Of a DNA stretch of 49,882 nucleotides, positions 6,720 through 45,602 are shown piece by piece. Below the pieces are notes generated by a model, which saw only the letters and a program-made list of their open reading frames with translations, was not told where the DNA came from and did no database searches. Numbering within the stretch: the stretch's first letter is position 1; each line of letters starts with the position of its first letter. The translations under genes and the position numbers were made by a program. Origin of the DNA: a virus; IMG/VR virus record IMGVR_UViG_3300017605_000543, positions 1 to 49,882 of that record. One strand, 5' to 3'.

Positions 6720-8071
6720 AGCCGCCACGGCTCGAGCTCCACGTATTCACGCCCGGCCGGCACTTCGCCCGGCGCACGTGCCACGATTTCAAAAGCCATG
6801 TAATCAGTCTTGCCGCCGCTAGCTGCATCCGTGCGACCGAATGACGGCCGCAGCACCAGCGGTGCCAGGCGCGTGATCCGCGTAACAGACCAAAGCGTTT
6901 CGTGTCTTTCCTTGCCGTGCAGTAACGACGTCTTGAAGATCCCGCACACGCGTCGCGAATACTTGAGCGCGTGCACGATGAAAGCTTCCGCTTTACCGAG
7001 CTCATACGGCGGATTCATCAGGCACAGATCGAAGATGTCCGGCCCGCCGCCGGCCAAAAAATCCCCGCACCGTGCAGTGATGGTGACGCCCGGCGGCGTG
7101 CGCATCGCTGCCAGGATCGCCACGTTCGCAGGATCCAAGTCGATGGCCGTGATCTGCGTACACGCATGCGGTGCGGCCAACACGGGCTCTAGCAGCGCGC
7201 CCAAGCCGGCAGAGGGCTCGAGCACGGTCACGGGCTCGCCGCCCTGCAGCGCCCACCGCCACAGCGCTGCAGCTGCTTTGGGCGGTGTGTACCACTGCGA
7301 CCTTTCCCGCTGCTCGCGCGTCAACTTCCGCTGGTTCACCACGACCACGCGCGGCAGGTCTGCACGCTGCGACGGTGCGCCATCCGGTGCGAGCACCGGT
7401 TTACGCGCGCCAGGCTGCACGGTCACCGCATCACGCCCAAGCACCGCGCCAACTTCCGGAGCTCGCTCCGCCCACACGCCGATCAAGATCGCGGCCGATT
7501 CATCGGGCCCGGTGGGCCCGCCCACCAGCGCCTGCGCTGTCGTACGTTCGTGTTCGCGGATCACATCACGCCGCATACTTGTGTACGCCGGTCCGAGTAC
7601 GTGACGCCGCCACCGCGATGGCTCGATTTTGACGACTCGCCGCTCATGCAGTCCGACCGCTCGCCAGGCCGTGAGCCACCGCTCCCGCGCCGCACCGAGG
7701 GCCATCAAAACGGCTTTGTTACCCCCATACGGTGATTCCAGAACAAGCACCGGTGCGAGCCCCAAAGCTTGGGCGTCGTGCACGAACCACCGCACAATGT
7801 ACGACAGCGCATCACTGTCCAGGCTTTCAACCTCACCATACGCAGACTGCACACCTGCGTAGCGTGCCGACCACCCAGATCGCCCGGCGGTGTCGACCGC
7901 GAGCACGGCACAGCGCCAGGGCAGTGCGGCGTACCCCCGTAGTCGCACCAGCTGGGCCTGCGTTGGCTTCCGGCGTGGCGGCCGGCGCACGTACGCGGTA
8001 GCCCGCTTGCGTGGCGCCTGGCGCCGTCCAGGTGCCTTCGTGACTGCGCGCTGTGTTCTAGTCGCACTCAT
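6716..8071 (-). CDS. RuvC-like resolvase domain fused to an N6-adenine DNA methyltransferase
   Basis: The start is ATG at 8071 in an ATGA overlap with the upstream gene, giving 451 aa. Residues 1-45 are basic. Residues about 55-200 look like a RuvC-type RNase H fold: D60 in VLAVDTAGRSGW, E112 in LVLESPYGG, KIEPSRWRRHVLG near 148-160 and D190 in GPDESAAILIG. The C-terminal half has methyltransferase motif I VLEPSAGLG (283-291), AIDLDP (309-314) and NPPY (353-356), diagnostic of adenine-N6 methylases. Both active sites appear intact. A single protein that could resolve branched DNA and methylate adenines is unusual. Confidence 0.85.
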   Translation of the reverse strand: MSATRTQRAVTKAPGRRQAPRKRATAYVRRPPRRKPTQAQLVRLRGYAALPWRCAVLAVDTAGRSGWSARYAGVQSAYGEVESLDSDALSYIVRWFVHDAQALGLAPVLVLESPYGGNKAVLMALGAARERWLTAWRAVGLHERRVVKIEPSRWRRHVLGPAYTSMRRDVIREHERTTAQALVGGPTGPDESAAILIGVWAERAPEVGAVLGRDAVTVQPGARKPVLAPDGAPSQRADLPRVVVVNQRKLTREQRERSQWYTPPKAAAALWRWALQGGEPVTVLEPSAGLGALLEPVLAAPHACTQITAIDLDPANVAILAAMRTPPGVTITARCGDFLAGGGPDIFDLCLMNPPYELGKAEAFIVHALKYSRRVCGIFKTSLLHGKERHETLWSVTRITRLAPLVLRPSFGRTDAASGGKTDYMAFEIVARAPGEVPAGREYVELEPWRL

Positions 8072-8535
8072 AGCCAAACCCCGTCAATCCGCAGGCCAAC
8101 CCGCCTGCACACGGCACCCAGCGACCACCCAAGCGGCCGCACCGATTCGCCCAGCTCACCCAGCGCTACGGCCCGCGACAGCCGCCAAAGCGGGCTTGCG
8201 GCTTTGGCAGTGAGCCACCCAGCCACGTCTCGCGGCCAGGCCCGGTCGTGCTCCGCAGCGAGCCACAGCGCGTGGAGCTCGAGCCCGGCCAGCGTGGGGC
8301 GTGGCTCGCCCGGCGGCGGCGGTGCGGCTGTCGACACTCGCAGCGCCACCGCCTGACCCGTCCTAGCCAGCACACAGCCGATGCAGGCCGGGATCGGCAG
8401 GGCGCTTAGCGTCCGCAGGTCACACTGGGCGGCTTCGAGCGCTGCGACCGTCACCACCTGCGGGACGGCATGACTAGCGGCGGGCAACCCAAGCCGGGGC
8501 ACACGGCGTGTTGGTGGCGTTCTAGATTCCGCCAC
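8068..8535 (-). CDS. Hypothetical protein
   Basis: The GTG start at 8535 is preceded by a purine-rich AGAAAG stretch about 10 nt upstream. The 155-aa product is Ala/Leu/Pro-rich, with CDLRTLSALPIPACIGC near 39-55, a Pro-rich linker (APPPPGEPRP) and a helical C-terminal half rich in Trp (LHALWLAAEHDRAWPRDVAGW). No known family is recognised. Its stop overlaps the RuvC-methyltransferase start by ATGA, which ties it to the replication operon. Confidence 0.6.
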   Translation of the reverse strand: MAESRTPPTRRVPRLGLPAASHAVPQVVTVAALEAAQCDLRTLSALPIPACIGCVLARTGQAVALRVSTAAPPPPGEPRPTLAGLELHALWLAAEHDRAWPRDVAGWLTAKAASPLWRLSRAVALGELGESVRPLGWSLGAVCRRVGLRIDGVWL

Positions 8536-8926
8536 GTTCGCCGCTTTCTATAAATAACTGGGCTCGTTTGGACTCATTTGGACTATAGCTTGGACTATAG
8601 CAAATCCAATCATTACATATACTTAGAGCCCGATTTATGGGTATAGCCCAGTTAGCACGGGTGTCGCCTCGCGTATGCGCGCGATGTTTTTTCTCAGGTG
8701 TCCCGCCGGATACTGGCTGACGCCCAAGGTGCGATACCGCATCACCCCGGCACACAGTGGTGCCAAGGAAAAATCTCACGCACATACGCGAGGCAGACCC
8801 CGTGCTAACTGGACTAGTCCCCAAAACGCGGTCGCAAGTATGCGAAACCATTGCGCCAGGGTGAGCCCATGGGCTAGTCCAAATGAGTCCAAACGAGCCC
8901 AGTTTTTTGTGAAAACTGGCGCTCAT
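8522..8926 (-). CDS. Doubtful reading frame spanning the inverted-repeat element
   Basis: This 134-aa frame starts in an ATGA overlap with the stop of the primase-helicase and runs 14 bp into the next gene, so its position is operon-like. Its sequence, however, comes almost wholly from the 349-bp inverted repeat. The same peptides (HTRG..RANW, SPNESKRAQ) are encoded on the other strand from the other arm. The composition, with many Ser, Cys and Trp, is atypical. I favour a non-coding element, but a translated product cannot be excluded. Confidence 0.25.
   Translation of the reverse strand: MSASFHKKLGSFGLIWTSPWAHPGAMVSHTCDRVLGTSPVSTGSASRMCVRFFLGTTVCRGDAVSHLGRQPVSGGTPEKKHRAHTRGDTRANWAIPINRALSICNDWICYSPSYSPNESKRAQLFIESGERGGI
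8556..8904. repeat. 349-bp imperfect inverted repeat element
   Basis: The outer arms 8556-8585 and 8875-8904 are perfect 30-bp inverted repeats (left arm begins AACTGGGCTCGTTTGG). Further in, 8648-8661 pairs perfectly with 8799-8812 (14 bp) and 8666-8677 with 8783-8794 (12 bp), with weaker complementarity between and towards the centre near 8730. The outer arms also contain internal repeats of GTCCAAA-type words. The element lies between the primase-helicase and downstream genes. It could be a replication origin, a structured RNA, or a non-autonomous mobile element. Confidence 0.8.
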
Positions 8927-11571
8927 TCGGCCAGCTCCACAATTTGCAAGAGCTCTACTACCTTGATTTGGCGTCCAGCGATTCGGACGCGCATGTCACA
9001 GCGGCCGGCGTCACATCGTGACCACCCGCGGCTCGCCCACAGCCGTATGACAACCTTCGCTGCGAGTCTATGGCGGCCGCAGAAATCCGAAAACTCGGTG
9101 GGCAGCACATACAGCGCATCGCCACTCCGAAAGCCGCGGAGCCGCTGTCCAGGTCGGATCACAGGCAAACACAGCCCGCCCGAAGTTGACATCGTGGCCA
9201 CCGGGAAACCATCCGGATCTGACAGTGCCCAATCTTCCACCAGCTGCCGCGCGCGCTGGGCGAGTGATTCGACCATGCTGGCCTGGCAGTGCTGCTGATA
9301 CGCAGCGCACATCCGGTCGCCCTGATTGCCGAATCCGATCCAATGGGCCATCGCTTCCGCGGTGGCGAGCGTCGCGAAATAGTGCGCCGTGCGTGCGTGG
9401 ATGCCGGGATCGTGCTCGCCGCCGGGCCCTGCGGCTTCGCGTGCGTAGCGCTGGAATTCCGCCAAGTATTCGGCGTGGTGCTGTCGCCATGCGGGCCAAT
9501 CGTCGATGTCCACAAGCATCTGCAGCCATTGGCGGCCGAAGTTGCCCGCGTGCTGGGCGCACGCCGCACGCAGCCGATCGATCGCGGTCGGTGTCAGCTT
9601 GCCGAATCCGGCCAGCGGCACGTTGATGATCCGTGTCCGCACGCCGGTGGCGCTGCTGTCCGACATCAAATCGCGCTCACCCGTGGATATGAGCACCGTG
9701 CGCCAGTGCTGGGTTTCACGCAGCGCCAGATCCCGCTGCGCACGCGTGCGGCCGGTGCCGTTGATCAGCATGTACACCATGCGATCGAGGGCTTCCGGTT
9801 CGCCGCCGCCGATTTCGTCGTAGCACTGCGGCAGGTCCGACAGCATCGCAGCGCGCAACTCAGCACCGGCGCCGGTCGCATTCCACGACGCCAGCCACTG
9901 CGGATCGTGCGGATCGCCGTACACGGATCCCGCGATCCGCAGCATCGATGTTTTGCCGGTGCTCGATTCGCCCGACAGGTGCACGCCGAAATTCGGCGCT
10001 GACAGCGGCTCGAGCAGCGGTGCGGCCAGCGCTGCGGCAATCACCAGCGCGCACGACAGGTCCGCGTCCCACGCCTCGCGCAGAGCGGCCACGTGGCTCA
10101 CTGCGTCACCACGCGGCCGCAGCGCGGCGTATAGTCGCTTTCGATCGCCACGTGAATCTAAAGCGACCTGTCCAGCAGCGCCGGCCGGCACACCGCGCGC
10201 GGTGATTGGTTCGCTGGACACAAAAGCCCGCTGGCCGTCCACGTCGTGCCACCCTACCCGGCCCACAGACTTGACCACGGGTATGTGTGCGGCGTTGACG
10301 GCGCCCAAGGCGTGCAGCCAATCGATCGTCTTGCCGGCGTTCGACGACGTGATCGGTGCACCGTACGCGCCGAGCTCCGCGACGCACGTGCGCGCATCGA
10401 CCATGGCGGACCGTGAGATGCATTGCGACGTCCACGAATCCGGCCCGTTGTGTTGATACGTGACGTCAACACGACCTTCGCCCGTGTACAGGTCTTCCAA
10501 ATACCGCTCGATCAGGATCGGGCCTGCGGCGCTGATCAGCTGGGCGCCGCCTTGGCGTTCTGCGACGCCCACACGCCACAGCGTGCCATCGTCGCGCACG
10601 TCGTACCCATCAGGCAGCACGCACGCTTTGGGCACCGGTGCGGCGGCCAGCGCCTTGACTGCATGGATACGTGCGCGCGGGTTGGACGGATCGATCGGAT
10701 CAAGCGGCGTGGCGGCACGCAGCACGGCCAGCGTTGCGTCTAGCCCGTGCTTCGCGAAATAATCGTCGATCCCCTTGCACGCCGGATCAGGCGAGCACGC
10801 GAGCACCACCGATGCCGCACCGTGGGCGTGGAGCACGCCGGCCAGGCGGCACGCAGCGCGCATCACTTGCCCGTTCGTGCGCGCGTCGCCGTCGAACACG
10901 ATCACATGCTGCCGCGCTGCTACGTGCACGTAGTCACGGATCAGCGGGTGCAGTTGCACGACTTCCGCATGCGACGTGCCGGGCTCGACCCAGTTATCCA
11001 CACCAGTTAGGCCGATGCACGGCAGGCCCAACTGATCGAGCAGCAGAGCCTTTTTCTCGCCTTCCGTCCAATACATCGGCGGCGGTGGTGCGGGTGCCGG
11101 ATCCACACCAGCTGTCGGCGGTGCGGCGGCCGGATCCTCACCAGCTGCCGGCGGGCCGTACGCACCGGCCATGCGCGCGCGCGGTGGGTAGTACACCACC
11201 GAGCCAATGCGGTGTGATTGGTCGTACTTGATGGCCCGCGGCTTCGACCCACGGGCGTCTACACGCGGCGTCGTGGGCTTGACGCGATACACGTACGGCG
11301 CGACGTCGCCAGGCAGAAAGAAAGGAAAAACCAGCGCGGCGCCGCAGCTCCGCGGGTACGTGCTGCGATCAACCAGCATCCCGATCGCGCGCGGCGACAG
11401 CTCCGTGTACAGCGCCGCAAGCGCGATGGTTTCATCTGTCAGGCCCGACGCATGCAGCTCCGCTGTGTGGGCGGTGCTGCATTCACGCTTGACCGGCAGT
11501 GGCACCACCACGCGCCGCGGCGTGGTGGTGGGGCGTGACTTTGTGATCGGGCCGTCTGACACGGCTTTCAT
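8923..11571 (-). CDS. Primase-helicase: TOPRIM (DUF3854-like) plus DUF927-type helicase
   Basis: This 882-aa protein is the main replication enzyme in the window. Residues about 75-130 resemble a CHC2-less primase N-domain. A TOPRIM-like DUF3854 region has the glutamate in TEGEKKALLLDQLGLP (169-184) and the acidic pair in VIVFDGDA (223-230). Residues about 320-870 match the DUF927 superfamily-3-like ATPase, with Walker A GESSTGKTS (534-542) and Walker B CYDEIGGG (583-590). A Pro/Ala linker sits at 140-166. No DNA polymerase is encoded nearby, so host polymerase use is likely. It is coupled to the upstream gene by ATGA. Confidence 0.9.
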   Translation of the reverse strand: MKAVSDGPITKSRPTTTPRRVVVPLPVKRECSTAHTAELHASGLTDETIALAALYTELSPRAIGMLVDRSTYPRSCGAALVFPFFLPGDVAPYVYRVKPTTPRVDARGSKPRAIKYDQSHRIGSVVYYPPRARMAGAYGPPAAGEDPAAAPPTAGVDPAPAPPPPMYWTEGEKKALLLDQLGLPCIGLTGVDNWVEPGTSHAEVVQLHPLIRDYVHVAARQHVIVFDGDARTNGQVMRAACRLAGVLHAHGAASVVLACSPDPACKGIDDYFAKHGLDATLAVLRAATPLDPIDPSNPRARIHAVKALAAAPVPKACVLPDGYDVRDDGTLWRVGVAERQGGAQLISAAGPILIERYLEDLYTGEGRVDVTYQHNGPDSWTSQCISRSAMVDARTCVAELGAYGAPITSSNAGKTIDWLHALGAVNAAHIPVVKSVGRVGWHDVDGQRAFVSSEPITARGVPAGAAGQVALDSRGDRKRLYAALRPRGDAVSHVAALREAWDADLSCALVIAAALAAPLLEPLSAPNFGVHLSGESSTGKTSMLRIAGSVYGDPHDPQWLASWNATGAGAELRAAMLSDLPQCYDEIGGGEPEALDRMVYMLINGTGRTRAQRDLALRETQHWRTVLISTGERDLMSDSSATGVRTRIINVPLAGFGKLTPTAIDRLRAACAQHAGNFGRQWLQMLVDIDDWPAWRQHHAEYLAEFQRYAREAAGPGGEHDPGIHARTAHYFATLATAEAMAHWIGFGNQGDRMCAAYQQHCQASMVESLAQRARQLVEDWALSDPDGFPVATMSTSGGLCLPVIRPGQRLRGFRSGDALYVLPTEFSDFCGRHRLAAKVVIRLWASRGWSRCDAGRCDMRVRIAGRQIKVVELLQIVELAE

Positions 11572-12293
11572 GCGACGTCGTGGCCGGGCGTGGACGTGGG
11601 CGGCTGCGTGCCGTCCGAACGTCTAGGCGGTGGCGGTAGTCGTGTGGGCCCGCTGGGCACGGCCACCACGGGCGGCACGAATTCCACGGTCGTGATAGGT
11701 GTCGAGCCGTCGTCGTCGGGCCAGGGCTCGAAGCCATCATCATCGGCCGGCGGCGGTGGCTCCGGCCCGTCGTCGCTGCTGTCGGCGGCTTCGCTGCCAA
11801 ACAAATCGTGCACCAAATCAGCGCCTGTCATCGTGCGCGATTCCACGGTGGTGCCCGTGTCGGTACGCAGCAGCCGCCATTCTTTCGCGGTGTAATCAGC
11901 GCGCCACACGCAATCGATCGGCCGTTCCTCGACGCCTGCATCGATGATGTGGGCCAGCTTGTTGCGGCGCGCCGCGTGCTCGCGTGCTGTCCTAGATATC
12001 TCCGCCGCCGCAGCTTTCAGGCGCTCATATTGCAGCTCGCATTCCGACTGCTCTTGACCGTACTCGAGCCGCTCAGCTTCTGTCAGCGCGCACGGACACG
12101 CGCGGGTTTCGGTGCGCTCGCCCGGTTCCGCCGCTATCGGCTGCAGTGGTTCCAACGGCTGCGCGTGGCCGTTGCTCGCTGCCACCGCCTGCACCGCCGG
12201 CGGTGTGGTCGCCGCCGGCGCCACCTTCCGGCGCTTGGATGTCTCGGGTGTCTCGGGTGTCGTCGTCGTGGGTGTCGTGGGTCGCTTCGCCAT
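11568..12293 (-). CDS. Conserved-type phage protein of the replication operon
   Basis: The 241-aa product has low-complexity ends (Thr/Pro-rich 1-60 and acidic Pro-rich 165-241) around a folded core at about 65-160. The core contains ECELQYERLKAAAAEISR, then RPIDCVWRADYTAKEWRLLR and RTDTGTTVESRTMT. Similar cores with an RxDTGxxVxxRxMT ending occur in many small phage proteins of unknown function. The ATG at 12293 has an AAAGG-type ribosome site about 12 nt upstream. The first 221 bp overlap the upstream regulator in another frame. The stop overlaps the primase start by ATGA. Confidence 0.75.
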   Translation of the reverse strand: MAKRPTTPTTTTPETPETSKRRKVAPAATTPPAVQAVAASNGHAQPLEPLQPIAAEPGERTETRACPCALTEAERLEYGQEQSECELQYERLKAAAAEISRTAREHAARRNKLAHIIDAGVEERPIDCVWRADYTAKEWRLLRTDTGTTVESRTMTGADLVHDLFGSEAADSSDDGPEPPPPADDDGFEPWPDDDGSTPITTVEFVPPVVAVPSGPTRLPPPPRRSDGTQPPTSTPGHDVA

Positions 12294-12510
12294 CTGGATC
12301 GCCGCCTTTCGCGTCTAGTCCTAGTGCCTCATGTGGTGCGGACCCGAACAGCATCACGAGCCGCCGCAGCTGCGACACGCACGGCTCGGACTCGCCACGC
12401 TCCCATCGCGACAGCGTGACGGGGTGTGTCTGCGCGATTTCGGCGACGTCACGTTGCAGCAAACCGCGCGACGTCCGCGCGGTGAACAACCATTCGCCGA
12501 AGGTCCACAT
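12073..12510 (-). CDS. XRE/Cro-type regulator (short HTH protein)
   Basis: Residues 1-65 form a helix-turn-helix domain (LFTARTSRGLLQRDVAEIAQTHPVTLSRWERGESEP), probably a Cro/C1-type DNA-binding repressor. Residues 66-100 are acidic, and the rest is Gly-rich and overlaps the next gene in another frame for 221 bp, so the biologically relevant C-terminus is uncertain. The gene is the first of the leftward early operon and faces the plus-strand regulator at 12618 across an AT-richer intergenic region. This is the classic layout of a genetic switch. Confidence 0.8.
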   Translation of the reverse strand: MWTFGEWLFTARTSRGLLQRDVAEIAQTHPVTLSRWERGESEPCVSQLRRLVMLFGSAPHEALGLDAKGGDPDGEATHDTHDDDTRDTRDIQAPEGGAGGDHTAGGAGGGSEQRPRAAVGTTAADSGGTGRAHRNPRVSVRADRS

Positions 12511-12617
12511 CGTGCCGCACGCTAGTCATTTTTGACGTGTCGTGGCAAGTTGACTTGCACAGCAAAAATGCAAATGCGCGATTGCGTTTTTGTTCGTTGG
12601 CAGCGTACACACGGGCC
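12511..12617. promoter_or_regulatory. Divergent promoter/operator region between the two XRE regulators
   Basis: This is the most AT-rich stretch for kilobases. It contains TTGACGTGT (12532-12540) and a perfect 6-bp-arm inverted repeat GCAAGTTGACTTGC (12545-12558) whose centre holds a -35-like TTGACT. It lies between regulators reading outward on opposite strands, so it probably carries divergent promoters and operators for both. Confidence 0.6.
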
Positions 12618-13088
12618 GTGACGTCCCGTAGTCCTACCCGTTCGCCCGCCCCCAAGCCGCCCGCCAAACGGCCGCCTAAACGCCCACCCGCGCCCGCCCT
12701 GACCCGCCCTGACTTCGGTCCACGCCTGCAGACTCTGCGCGAGCAATGCGGCCACACGCAGACGGACCTGGCCGTCAAGATCGACGTATCAATCGCTACG
12801 ATATCGCGCTGGGAACGCGGCCAGTCAGAGCCACGAATCGAGCAGATTATCGGCATTTCAGACGCGCTAGGACTGTCGATCGATCAGCTGCTGGGCGGCG
12901 GCGTCGCAGCACCGGATCCGATGCCGGATGCACTGATGTTGTTTCTGCGGTCGGCTGCCGGGCGACTCGCCATCGAAGCCGGACTGCTGCCAACGCTGCG
13001 ACACCTGCGACTGGCCAAGCCACCCACGCTTGAGCTTTATCGCGCCATCACGGTGGCCTTGCTCGGCGCTGGCGCGGGTGAGGACTAG
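12618..13088 (+). CDS. XRE-family transcription regulator (candidate repressor)
   Basis: The GTG at 12618 is preferred because the longer in-frame extension to 12537 runs through the presumed promoter. The 156-aa product has a Pro/Arg-rich arm (1-27), a clear XRE helix-turn-helix (LQTLREQCGHTQTDLAVKIDVSIATISRWERGQSEPRIEQI) and a helical C-terminal region (LMLFLRSAAGRLAIEAGLLP) suited to dimerisation. It faces the minus-strand HTH gene, and the pair could act as a lysogeny switch. The domain is certain; the repressor role is inferred. Confidence 0.85.
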   Translation: MTSRSPTRSPAPKPPAKRPPKRPPAPALTRPDFGPRLQTLREQCGHTQTDLAVKIDVSIATISRWERGQSEPRIEQIIGISDALGLSIDQLLGGGVAAPDPMPDALMLFLRSAAGRLAIEAGLLPTLRHLRLAKPPTLELYRAITVALLGAGAGED

Positions 13089-17717: not shown

Positions 17718-18973
17718 GCACCAGTGCTCATGAGCTCATGAGCACCGGAGCTCATGAGCGGGCTCGCGTGGTGCTCGATCCCACGCAACGCCGGGCCGTG
17801 GAGCTTGTGTGCTCCGCACCGGTCGGCATCGTGACCGGCGGGCCCGGTACGGGTAAGTCAACGTGCTTGGAGCAAGCCGTCGATCAACTCGAGCGCTCGC
17901 ACCGCACGTACGCGCTAGCGTCACCCACCGGCAAGGCGGCCAAGCGGCTCGCAGAAGCCACCAAGCGCGACGCCTGCACGCTGCACCGGTTGCTAGAATA
18001 CTCGCCGCGGCTGGGCGGCTTTGGGCGCAACGCCGATGAACCGCTCGATCAAGACGTCGTGATCGTCGATGAATCGTCGATGCTGGACATAGAGCTGATG
18101 GCCGCACTGTGCGCTGCCATCGACACGCGGCGCACGCGGCTGATCTTGGTCGGTGATGCCGATCAGCTGCCACCGGTGGGCGCCGGCCAGCCTTTCGCAG
18201 ACATGGTGCGGGCCGGTATCGTGCCGGTGGTGCGGCTCGGTACGCTGCACCGCTCTGCGGCCGATTCGTGGATTCATACCGCCGCCCAGTGCATGTTGCG
18301 CGGTCACGGTTTTTCGCTGGACGCGATGCATGACTTTCGGTTCGCTGAGTGCACCGATCCGGCGTGGATACTTCCCAAGGTCCGGCGGCTGTGTTTGGAA
18401 GCCTTCCCACGCGGTGGGCCACGTGGCGAAGCGCAAGTCTTGATCCCGCAGCGGCCGGGCGTCGCAGGCGTCGATGCGGCCAACGTGCAGCTGCAAGCCG
18501 CGCTGAATCCACCGCCGCCCACGGCTGCGGGCCACCGTGACCCAACCCCGGGCGACCTGCGTGCAGGCGACCGCGTGATCCAAACCAAAAACAACTACGA
18601 TCTAGGCGTCTACAATGGCGAAGTCGGCCGCGTGCTGTCCGTAGACGCCGCCACCGGTGCGGCCGTTGTCGAGTATCCCGATCACGGCGCACTGGCGTAC
18701 ACGGGCGCGCAAGCGGCCGCGCTACAGCTGGCATACGCGCTCACGGTGCACAAAACACAGGGCTCAGAATACCCGTGGACAATCGTCGTGTGCCATTCGA
18801 CGCACACATACATGCTGTCGCGGCAGTTGCTCTACACCGCGATCACGCGCGCCAAAGCCGGCGTGGTGCTTGTCGGTGATCGTAAGGGTATTGATAGGGC
18901 CGTGCGCAATCGGCAGCCTGCCGTGCGGCACACATCACTGCTAGACCGCATTCGCGATGGCGACGTGGTGTAA
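17714..18973 (+). CDS. RecD2-type helicase, C-terminal ATPase part
   Basis: The GTG at 17714 starts a 419-aa superfamily-1B helicase coupled to the N-terminal gene by GTGA. Motifs in order are DPTQRRAVE (Q-like), GGPGTGKST (Walker A, 42-50), ASPTGKAAKRL, VIVDESSM (116-123), LVGDADQLPPVG (145-156), YALTVHKTQGSEYP and LYTAITRAK, so the motor is complete. The first 15 residues (STSAHELMSTGAHE) are encoded by palindromic repeat array A. It should form a working 5'-3' helicase with the upstream product, perhaps for end processing or repair. Confidence 0.9.
   Translation: MSTSAHELMSTGAHERARVVLDPTQRRAVELVCSAPVGIVTGGPGTGKSTCLEQAVDQLERSHRTYALASPTGKAAKRLAEATKRDACTLHRLLEYSPRLGGFGRNADEPLDQDVVIVDESSMLDIELMAALCAAIDTRRTRLILVGDADQLPPVGAGQPFADMVRAGIVPVVRLGTLHRSAADSWIHTAAQCMLRGHGFSLDAMHDFRFAECTDPAWILPKVRRLCLEAFPRGGPRGEAQVLIPQRPGVAGVDAANVQLQAALNPPPPTAAGHRDPTPGDLRAGDRVIQTKNNYDLGVYNGEVGRVLSVDAATGAAVVEYPDHGALAYTGAQAAALQLAYALTVHKTQGSEYPWTIVVCHSTHTYMLSRQLLYTAITRAKAGVVLVGDRKGIDRAVRNRQPAVRHTSLLDRIRDGDVV
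17716..17759. repeat. Palindromic array A (three CTCATGAG units) at the RecD2 gene junction
   Basis: The array consists of overlapping GCTCATGAGC palindromes and ACCGG/ACCAG-type spacers. It is translated in frame as the N-terminus of the ATPase half and supplies the GTGA coupling site. It is one of six loci of the same repeat family. Confidence 0.9.
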
Positions 18974-19252: not shown

Positions 19253-19354
19253 GAGCTCATGAGCTCATGAGCACCGGTGCTCCGGTGCACTGGAGCTCAT
19301 GAGCAAACCCGCACACTTAGCTCATGAGCTCATGAGCTCATGAGCACCGGAGCT
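19253..19354. repeat. Palindromic array B (six CTCATGAG units) upstream of parA
   Basis: Two blocks, 19253-19304 and 19320-19354, carry three CTCATGAG units each plus an ACCGGTGCTCCGGTGCACTGG-like palindromic spacer in the first block. The second block ends 62 bp before the parA start. Upstream placement next to a ParA/RHH operon is typical of partition centromeres of small type Ib systems. This is the best candidate parS locus in the window. Confidence 0.9.
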
Positions 19355-34768: not shown

Positions 34769-34850
34769 GCTCATGAGCTCATGAGCACCGGTGCACCGGA
34801 GCTCATGAGCACGGGTGCACCGGTGCACCGGAGCTCATGAGCTCATGAGC
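34769..34850. repeat. Palindromic array C (five CTCATGAG units) between sheath and tube genes
   Basis: GCTCATGAGC units are arranged 2+1+2 with ACCGGTGCACCGG-like spacers that are themselves palindromic. The array fills almost the whole 104-bp gap, starting 2 bp from the sheath stop and ending 20 bp before the tube ATG. Confidence 0.9.
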
Positions 34851-37887: not shown

Positions 37888-37937
37888 TGCTCATGAGCTC
37901 ATGAGCACCGGAGCTCATGAGCACCGGTGCACCGGAG
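37888..37937. repeat. Palindromic array D (three CTCATGAG units)
   Basis: Two overlapping GCTCATGAGC units and one more are separated by ACCGG, followed by an ACCGGTGCACCGG palindrome. It lies just upstream of the small gene at 37873 and provides in-frame ATG codons (MST, MSS) for it. Confidence 0.9.
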
Positions 37938-41716: not shown

Positions 41717-41822
41717 GCTCATGAGCTCATGAGCACCGGAGCTCATGAGCACCGGAGCTCATGAGCACCGGTGCTCCGGTGCACTGGAGCTCATGAGCTC
41801 ATGAGCACCGGAGCTCATGAGC
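41717..41822. repeat. Palindromic array E (seven CTCATGAG units), the longest
   Basis: Seven CTCATGAG units with ACCGG spacers and one ACCGGTGCTCCGGTGCACTGG block occupy the entire gap between the MuF-like and DUF2213 genes. The MuF-like gene uses a TGA inside the last palindrome as its stop. Confidence 0.92.
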
Positions 41823-45533: not shown

Positions 45534-45602
45534 GCTCATGAGCTCATGAGCTCCGGTGCACGGGTGCTCATGAGCTCATGAGCACCGGAGCTCATGAGCT
45601 CG
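45534..45602. repeat. Palindromic array F (five CTCATGAG units)
   Basis: Units are arranged 2+2+1 with CTCCGGTGCACGGGTG and ACCGG spacers, between the terminator at 45609 and the start of the structural operon. It therefore lies in or near the promoter/leader of the capsid-tail transcript. Confidence 0.92.

Follow-up and report, generated by a model that had tools for sequence, protein, structure and literature searches.

A putative iteron-type replication origin in a large inverted repeat directly 3' of a DUF927 helicase gene in an uncultivated phage

Results

We studied a large inverted repeat in the window, the whole 49,882-nucleotide stretch of viral DNA that was analysed, and judging from its sequence we consider it highly probable that this repeat is an iteron-type replication origin of the phage. 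The putative origin (no strand assigned) takes up the entire intergenic gap, 8536-8922, from a primase-helicase gene to the gene for a 155-aa protein. Its short sites, their layout, an AT-rich stretch, the position after the helicase gene and an arrangement kept despite changed sites all support this reading, as do the iteron arrays that distant DUF927 elements carry at this position. The origin is best explained as a member of the known SaPI/Cch-like iteron-type class, one whose dyad is notably continuous and whose sites turn over rapidly.

The inverted repeat and its sites

The repeat occupies all 387 bp between the helicase gene (8923-11571) and the gene that follows it (8068-8535), both on the minus strand. 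By direct reading, the outer arms (8556-8585 and 8875-8904) pair without a mismatch over 30 nt; a repeat search lengthened them to 58 nt (8539-8596 and 8864-8921, 81% complementary) and gave inner arms of 88 nt (8607-8694 and 8766-8853, 70% complementary). When the region was compared with its own genome by blastn, a self-inverted match covering 8539-8921 was returned (E=1.4e-28), and no second copy. The perfect 30-bp outer arms reported in a preliminary description of the sequence are borne out by this direct reading, and the inverted repeat by repeat search and self-match as well. The same description placed the element at 8556-8904 (349 bp); the repeat is indeed there, but its true unit is larger and is the whole gap, 8536-8922. 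The similar peptides it had noted on opposite strands, RANW and SPNESKRAQ, are present and are a by-product of the inverted repeat.

RNA folding had been proposed as a check, and the fold proved strong: taken as single-stranded RNA, 8540-8920 reached -202 kcal/mol, whereas shuffled versions averaged -116 +/- 5.6 (z=-15.3) and none of the 100 was as good. The self-complementarity score of the gap, 178, was the highest among the 387-bp segments sampled in the contig, followed by scores of 118, 104 and 96, all from arrays of the 12-mer GAGCTCATGAGC. No Rfam covariance model matched the gap at the gathering threshold, a promoter scan of the gap gave no hits, and GC skew, which had also been suggested as a check, did not switch at 8536-8922.

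Beyond what had been seen before, the outer arms turned out to be built from tandem repeats of about 10 bp carrying TGGACT or TGGGCT: the four on the left face inward, the four on the right mirror them, and further sites lie inside. The left outer cluster (8559-8596, plus strand) has TGGGCT at 8559 and TGGACT at 8569, 8579 and 8591, with start spacings of 10, 10 and 12 bp. Its mirror image, the right outer cluster (8864-8901, minus strand), has AGCCCA at 8864 and 8896 and AGTCCA at 8876 and 8886, spaced by 12, 10 and 10 bp, and an additional plus-strand TGGGCT lies inside it at 8870. Two inner iteron-like sites were found, AGCCCA at 8645-8650 (minus strand) and the near-palindromic TGGACTAGTCC at 8810-8820 (plus strand). 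Since the spacing is 10-12 bp, the sites should face roughly the same side of the double helix. Multiple short repeats, as expected of an iteron origin, are therefore present: TGGRCT occurs 11 times in the gap and at most three times in any other 387-bp segment sampled, and six of the 11 are TGGACT, which is found only four times in the remaining 49.5 kb.

The left half of the gap also contains the most AT-rich 100 bp of the contig (8546-8645, no strand assigned), with 64% A+T compared with about 36% for the contig, and we regard this stretch as a candidate DNA unwinding element. It fits the AT-rich DNA expected next to or between the iterons of an origin, and it should be noted that it overlaps the left cluster and is not central between the clusters.

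Towards the centre lies an inverted pair of the pattern CGTATGYGCG...TTTTT, with the T-run on the inward-reading strand. Both its left half, CGTATGCGCGCGATGTTTTTT (8669-8692, plus strand), and its right half, CTCGCGTATGTGCGTGAGATTTTTCC (8766-8792, minus strand), consist of a small hairpin and a T-run pointing inward. Terminator-like hairpins with a T-run number two in the gap, one per strand, where 0.6 would be expected. The pair may act as a terminator or transcription block, as an aid to melting (strand opening) or as a site for a second factor. Between the window and its relative L003 the pair (8666-8692 and 8766-8794) is more conserved than the iterons. It is mainly the mirror layout of the sites, with this inner hairpin pair in addition, that gives the putative origin its look of one giant inverted repeat.

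The presumed initiator gene

The gene at 8923-11571 (minus strand) encodes the presumed initiator, in which DUF3854 and DUF927 (an MCM-like AAA+ helicase) are followed by a C-terminal winged-helix-like domain related to HTH_56 (Cch). Pfam matches were found for DUF3854 (E=7e-15) and DUF927 (E=3e-35), so that a DUF927 MCM-like helicase, as expected for an origin of this class, is the direct neighbour of the repeat. The gap adjoins the gene end at 8923 and hence lies directly downstream of the initiator gene. The nearest solved structures are 8tch, a pathogenicity island protein (E=2.5e-15), and 5dgk (E=1.2e-9); the record of the latter says only 'active helicase', and we take it to be Cch, the SCCmec helicase of work published in 2016.

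The C-terminal 118 aa, encoded by 8926-9279 (minus strand), form the candidate iteron-binding domain, and the divergence between the window and L003 peaks here. Against the Pfam family HTH_56 ('Cch helix turn helix') the helicase C-terminus scored 22.3 bits, under the cut-off of 26.2. When an alignment of the C-termini from the window, L003 and L015 was compared by hhalign with the HTH_56-positive C-termini of five other DUF927 phage helicases, the match had a probability of 96.5% (E=8e-10). It is this profile comparison that points to an HTH_56-like winged helix; an AlphaFold model of the C-terminal 193 aa, made with three sequences, is of low confidence (pLDDT 54) and too weak to support it, its order of strands and helices being only loosely compatible with a winged helix.

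The gene on the other side (8068-8535, minus strand) directly abuts the gap. Its 155-aa product had no Pfam or PHROG match, and relatives of it follow the origin in both L003 and L015.

Related phages

Searches with the element itself (phages, plasmids and IMG/VR patterns) found L003, an IMG/VR contig, as the only relative. A search for genome contigs with the helicase found nothing, and one with a 412-aa ParB/methyltransferase-like gene found 80 loci at 45-53% identity, mostly from Alphaproteobacteria and Planctomycetota.

L003 shares the gene order of the window, and its helicase is 90% identical. Its gap is homologous, with the inner core and right flank kept and the outer sites different (TGGTCCC/GGTGGGACC); six exact copies of GGTGGGACC/GGTCCCACC lie in this gap and none elsewhere in the 9.7-kb locus. 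When the sites were searched for in the degenerate form TGRWCY, 13 of 16 had the same position and orientation in the window and L003 (p=0.014 by circular shift, a small test). The corresponding comparisons with L015 were weaker (p=0.06 and p=0.19); in L015, where the helicase C-terminus is 37% identical, the gap holds arrays of TGATCCC.

Compared in blocks of 50 residues, the helicases of the window and L003 are mostly 86-100% identical, with 80% and 78% in the second and fourth N-terminal blocks and 72% and 62% in the last two. From codons 1-780 to the codons after them dN rises from 0.05 to 0.21 and dS from 0.60 to 1.08. In these sequences the C-terminal domain of the helicase thus diverges together with the iteron sites, and since dS rises too, both faster change of the protein and recombination of a module made up of gene end and gap fit the data.

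Two further contigs have another initiator at this locus. In L014 (4204-6860) a protein with Pfam matches to Prim-Pol and DnaB_C-like domains replaces the helicase gene, and the 707-aa protein at the helicase locus of L016 (1106-3740) resembles it. Directly 3' of the replacement gene L014 has 12 GGGAAC sites, and L016 has similar repeats of GGTTCCC. As each replacement initiator has its own repeats at its 3' side, initiator and repeats seem to travel as a single cassette, which suggests that initiator and origin have been exchanged together at the helicase locus in related phages.

Other DUF927 loci

We scored short repeats by exact 8-mers at 18 DUF927 loci including the window, 11 in a first set and seven added later from phages and plasmids. 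At 13 of the 18 the 350-bp segment at the 3' end of the helicase gene outscored all other segments of the locus, counting one plasmid whose top segment lay 200 bp further on. The gap of the window itself is not the top by this score, being equalled or exceeded by 49 of 975 other segments; those among them that were listed by a related measure are GAGCTCATGAGC arrays. The 3' repeat pattern was not clear in phage Rollin, Planobispora pPR2 and Pae_U10, and was weak in Jekyll. The motifs that recur at the DUF927 loci (GGTTACC, GGTTCCA, GTTTCACC, AGTTCCC and others) look alike.

Other repeats and regulators in the genome

The palindrome-rich 12-mer GAGCTCATGAGC has 35 matches on both strands where none would be expected, largely at gene boundaries and in six clusters (17726-17759, 19253-19345, 34769-34850, 37889-37922, 41717-41822 and 45534-45601). 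The L003 contig has 31 matches, likewise in six clusters, and the L014, L015 and L016 contigs have none. These clusters resemble dispersed operator or stoperator sites. A divergent pair of Cro/CI-like HTH regulators is encoded at 12073-12510 (minus strand) and 12537-13088 (plus strand), and is likely to be a lysis-lysogeny or early control switch.

Discussion

Alternative readings of the gap

The preliminary description had left open whether the repeat is an origin, a structured RNA or a mobile element. Comparison supports the first of these well: iteron-like sites and AT-rich DNA lie 3' of an initiator-type DUF927 helicase gene, in a layout found in relatives. If the gap is transcribed with the operon, the flanking genes being on one strand, its hairpin could be a processing site, an attenuator, an antitermination element or a primer RNA, and the very strong fold, the inner hairpin core kept in L003 and the two terminator-like hairpins with T-runs would suit such a role. 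We nevertheless find a structured RNA improbable as the explanation of the repeat. No Rfam family matches, the fold is weaker in L003 (z=-5.8 compared with -16.5 for the gap of the window), and pairing leaves unexplained why sites also repeat directly within one arm at 10-12-bp spacing, or why distant DUF927 phages and plasmids, though unrelated in sequence, hold direct and inverted iterons at the same position. The symmetry can be explained without an RNA, although the inner core may have an RNA or terminator role alongside the origin. Another reading is a bidirectional terminator region, or a cluster of operators for a phage repressor, in place of an origin. The inward-facing hairpin and T-run on each strand (two against 0.6 expected) and the two HTH regulators encoded at 12.1-13.1 kb speak for it, but it leaves unexplained why such regions follow DUF927 helicases in many elements, why the gap has an AT-rich stretch and why the sites diverge together with the helicase C-terminus, and the stem, as read from the sequence of L003, looks weak in the direction of the genes; we therefore give this reading little credence.

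A MITE-like, non-autonomous mobile element would account for terminal inverted repeats in an intergenic position, yet it is extremely unlikely because no other copy was found in the genome, in IMG/VR (two core patterns and one arm pattern), in INPHARED or among plasmids, apart from the homologue in L003. The several copies or empty site and the target-site duplication by which a MITE or other non-autonomous transposon is recognised were not seen either. Comparison of relatives for presence or absence, which the preliminary description had proposed, showed occupied sites: the homologous site in L003 carries a diverged version with a conserved core, and the L015 gap is occupied too. We see hardly any chance that the gap is a protein-coding gene. 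A 134-aa frame (8522-8926, minus strand) is open in the window, and L003 has an open frame of 132 aa with similar last residues, but family searches gave no match for the former, the two share a frame in only 75 of 387 aligned columns, and their reading frames differ across the conserved core. The conserved 134-aa protein that had been named as the finding to overturn the inverted-repeat reading is thereby ruled out.

A model for initiation

If the gap is the origin, we propose that the DUF3854-DUF927 helicase would bind the TGGRCT sites through its C-terminal winged-helix-like domain, by analogy with the related systems described below. Because the sites form mirror-image clusters, two opposed helicase assemblies could form, and by the same analogy the clusters may load them facing in opposite directions. 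These assemblies would then melt the AT-rich DNA beside the left cluster, and forks would presumably start from the gap in both directions, giving bidirectional replication. Further, we speculate that the continuous dyad might itself be functional, the origin working in part through extrusion of a cruciform or through a hairpin transcript by which initiation is primed or gated. In this reading winged helix and iterons would be swapped together as a specificity cassette (TGGACT, TGGTCCC or TGATCCC), and related phages would thereby be prevented from firing one another's origins; this extension is conceivable but rather doubtful.

The iteron-type origin proposed here gives an uncultivated phage a concrete candidate origin, and suggests a rule for phages and plasmids with a DUF927 helicase, namely to seek the origin in the DNA that immediately follows the helicase gene. 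Close phages with near-identical motors and different C-terminal domains and iterons are also a natural system for studying how winged-helix initiators read their origins.

Comparison with known origin systems

The origin of SaPI elements and the putative origin of SCCmec elements occupy the same position, 3' of the helicase gene. SaPIbov1 Rep is of the DUF927 type. In SaPI the iteron origin directly follows the gene for Rep, which recognises it with its C-terminal domain (PMC7581432). The phage shares with SaPI the iterons directly downstream of the gene for a self-loading helicase and presumably the reading of these iterons by the C-terminal domain, which is predicted here from sequence; in addition, the nearest PDB sequence to the phage helicase is the pathogenicity island protein 8tch. 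It differs from SaPI in being a phage of another lineage, with DUF3854 fused to the helicase, another iteron sequence and a dyad that runs almost unbroken over 383 bp and holds an inner pair of hairpins.

In SCCmec, Cch contains DUF927, and the isolated C-terminal domain of Cch2 binds repeats that lie immediately 3' of the gene for Cch2 (PMC7581432), a layout like that of the phage. The C-terminal HTH_56 domain is named after Cch. Cch2 itself differs in being of the D5/Primase_Cterm type and not DUF927, and its inverted repeats are dispensable for binding, whereas the phage iterons themselves form the outer inverted repeat.

The DUF927 phages and plasmids in which we found 3' iteron regions (THSA-485A, FP_Epona, P12620-1, phiAH14b, AC844P2, phiRg507T2_3, pFP4, pSJEF4-2-2 and others) have direct and inverted short repeats in a gap of about 200-730 bp, mostly directly after the helicase gene. 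Their repeats differ in sequence from those of the window (e.g. GGTAACCGA, TAGGTGAAAC, TTGGTTCA and GGGGAACAG), and the seven phages folded are less continuously symmetric, with z from -2.4 to -7.3 compared with about -16 for the window.
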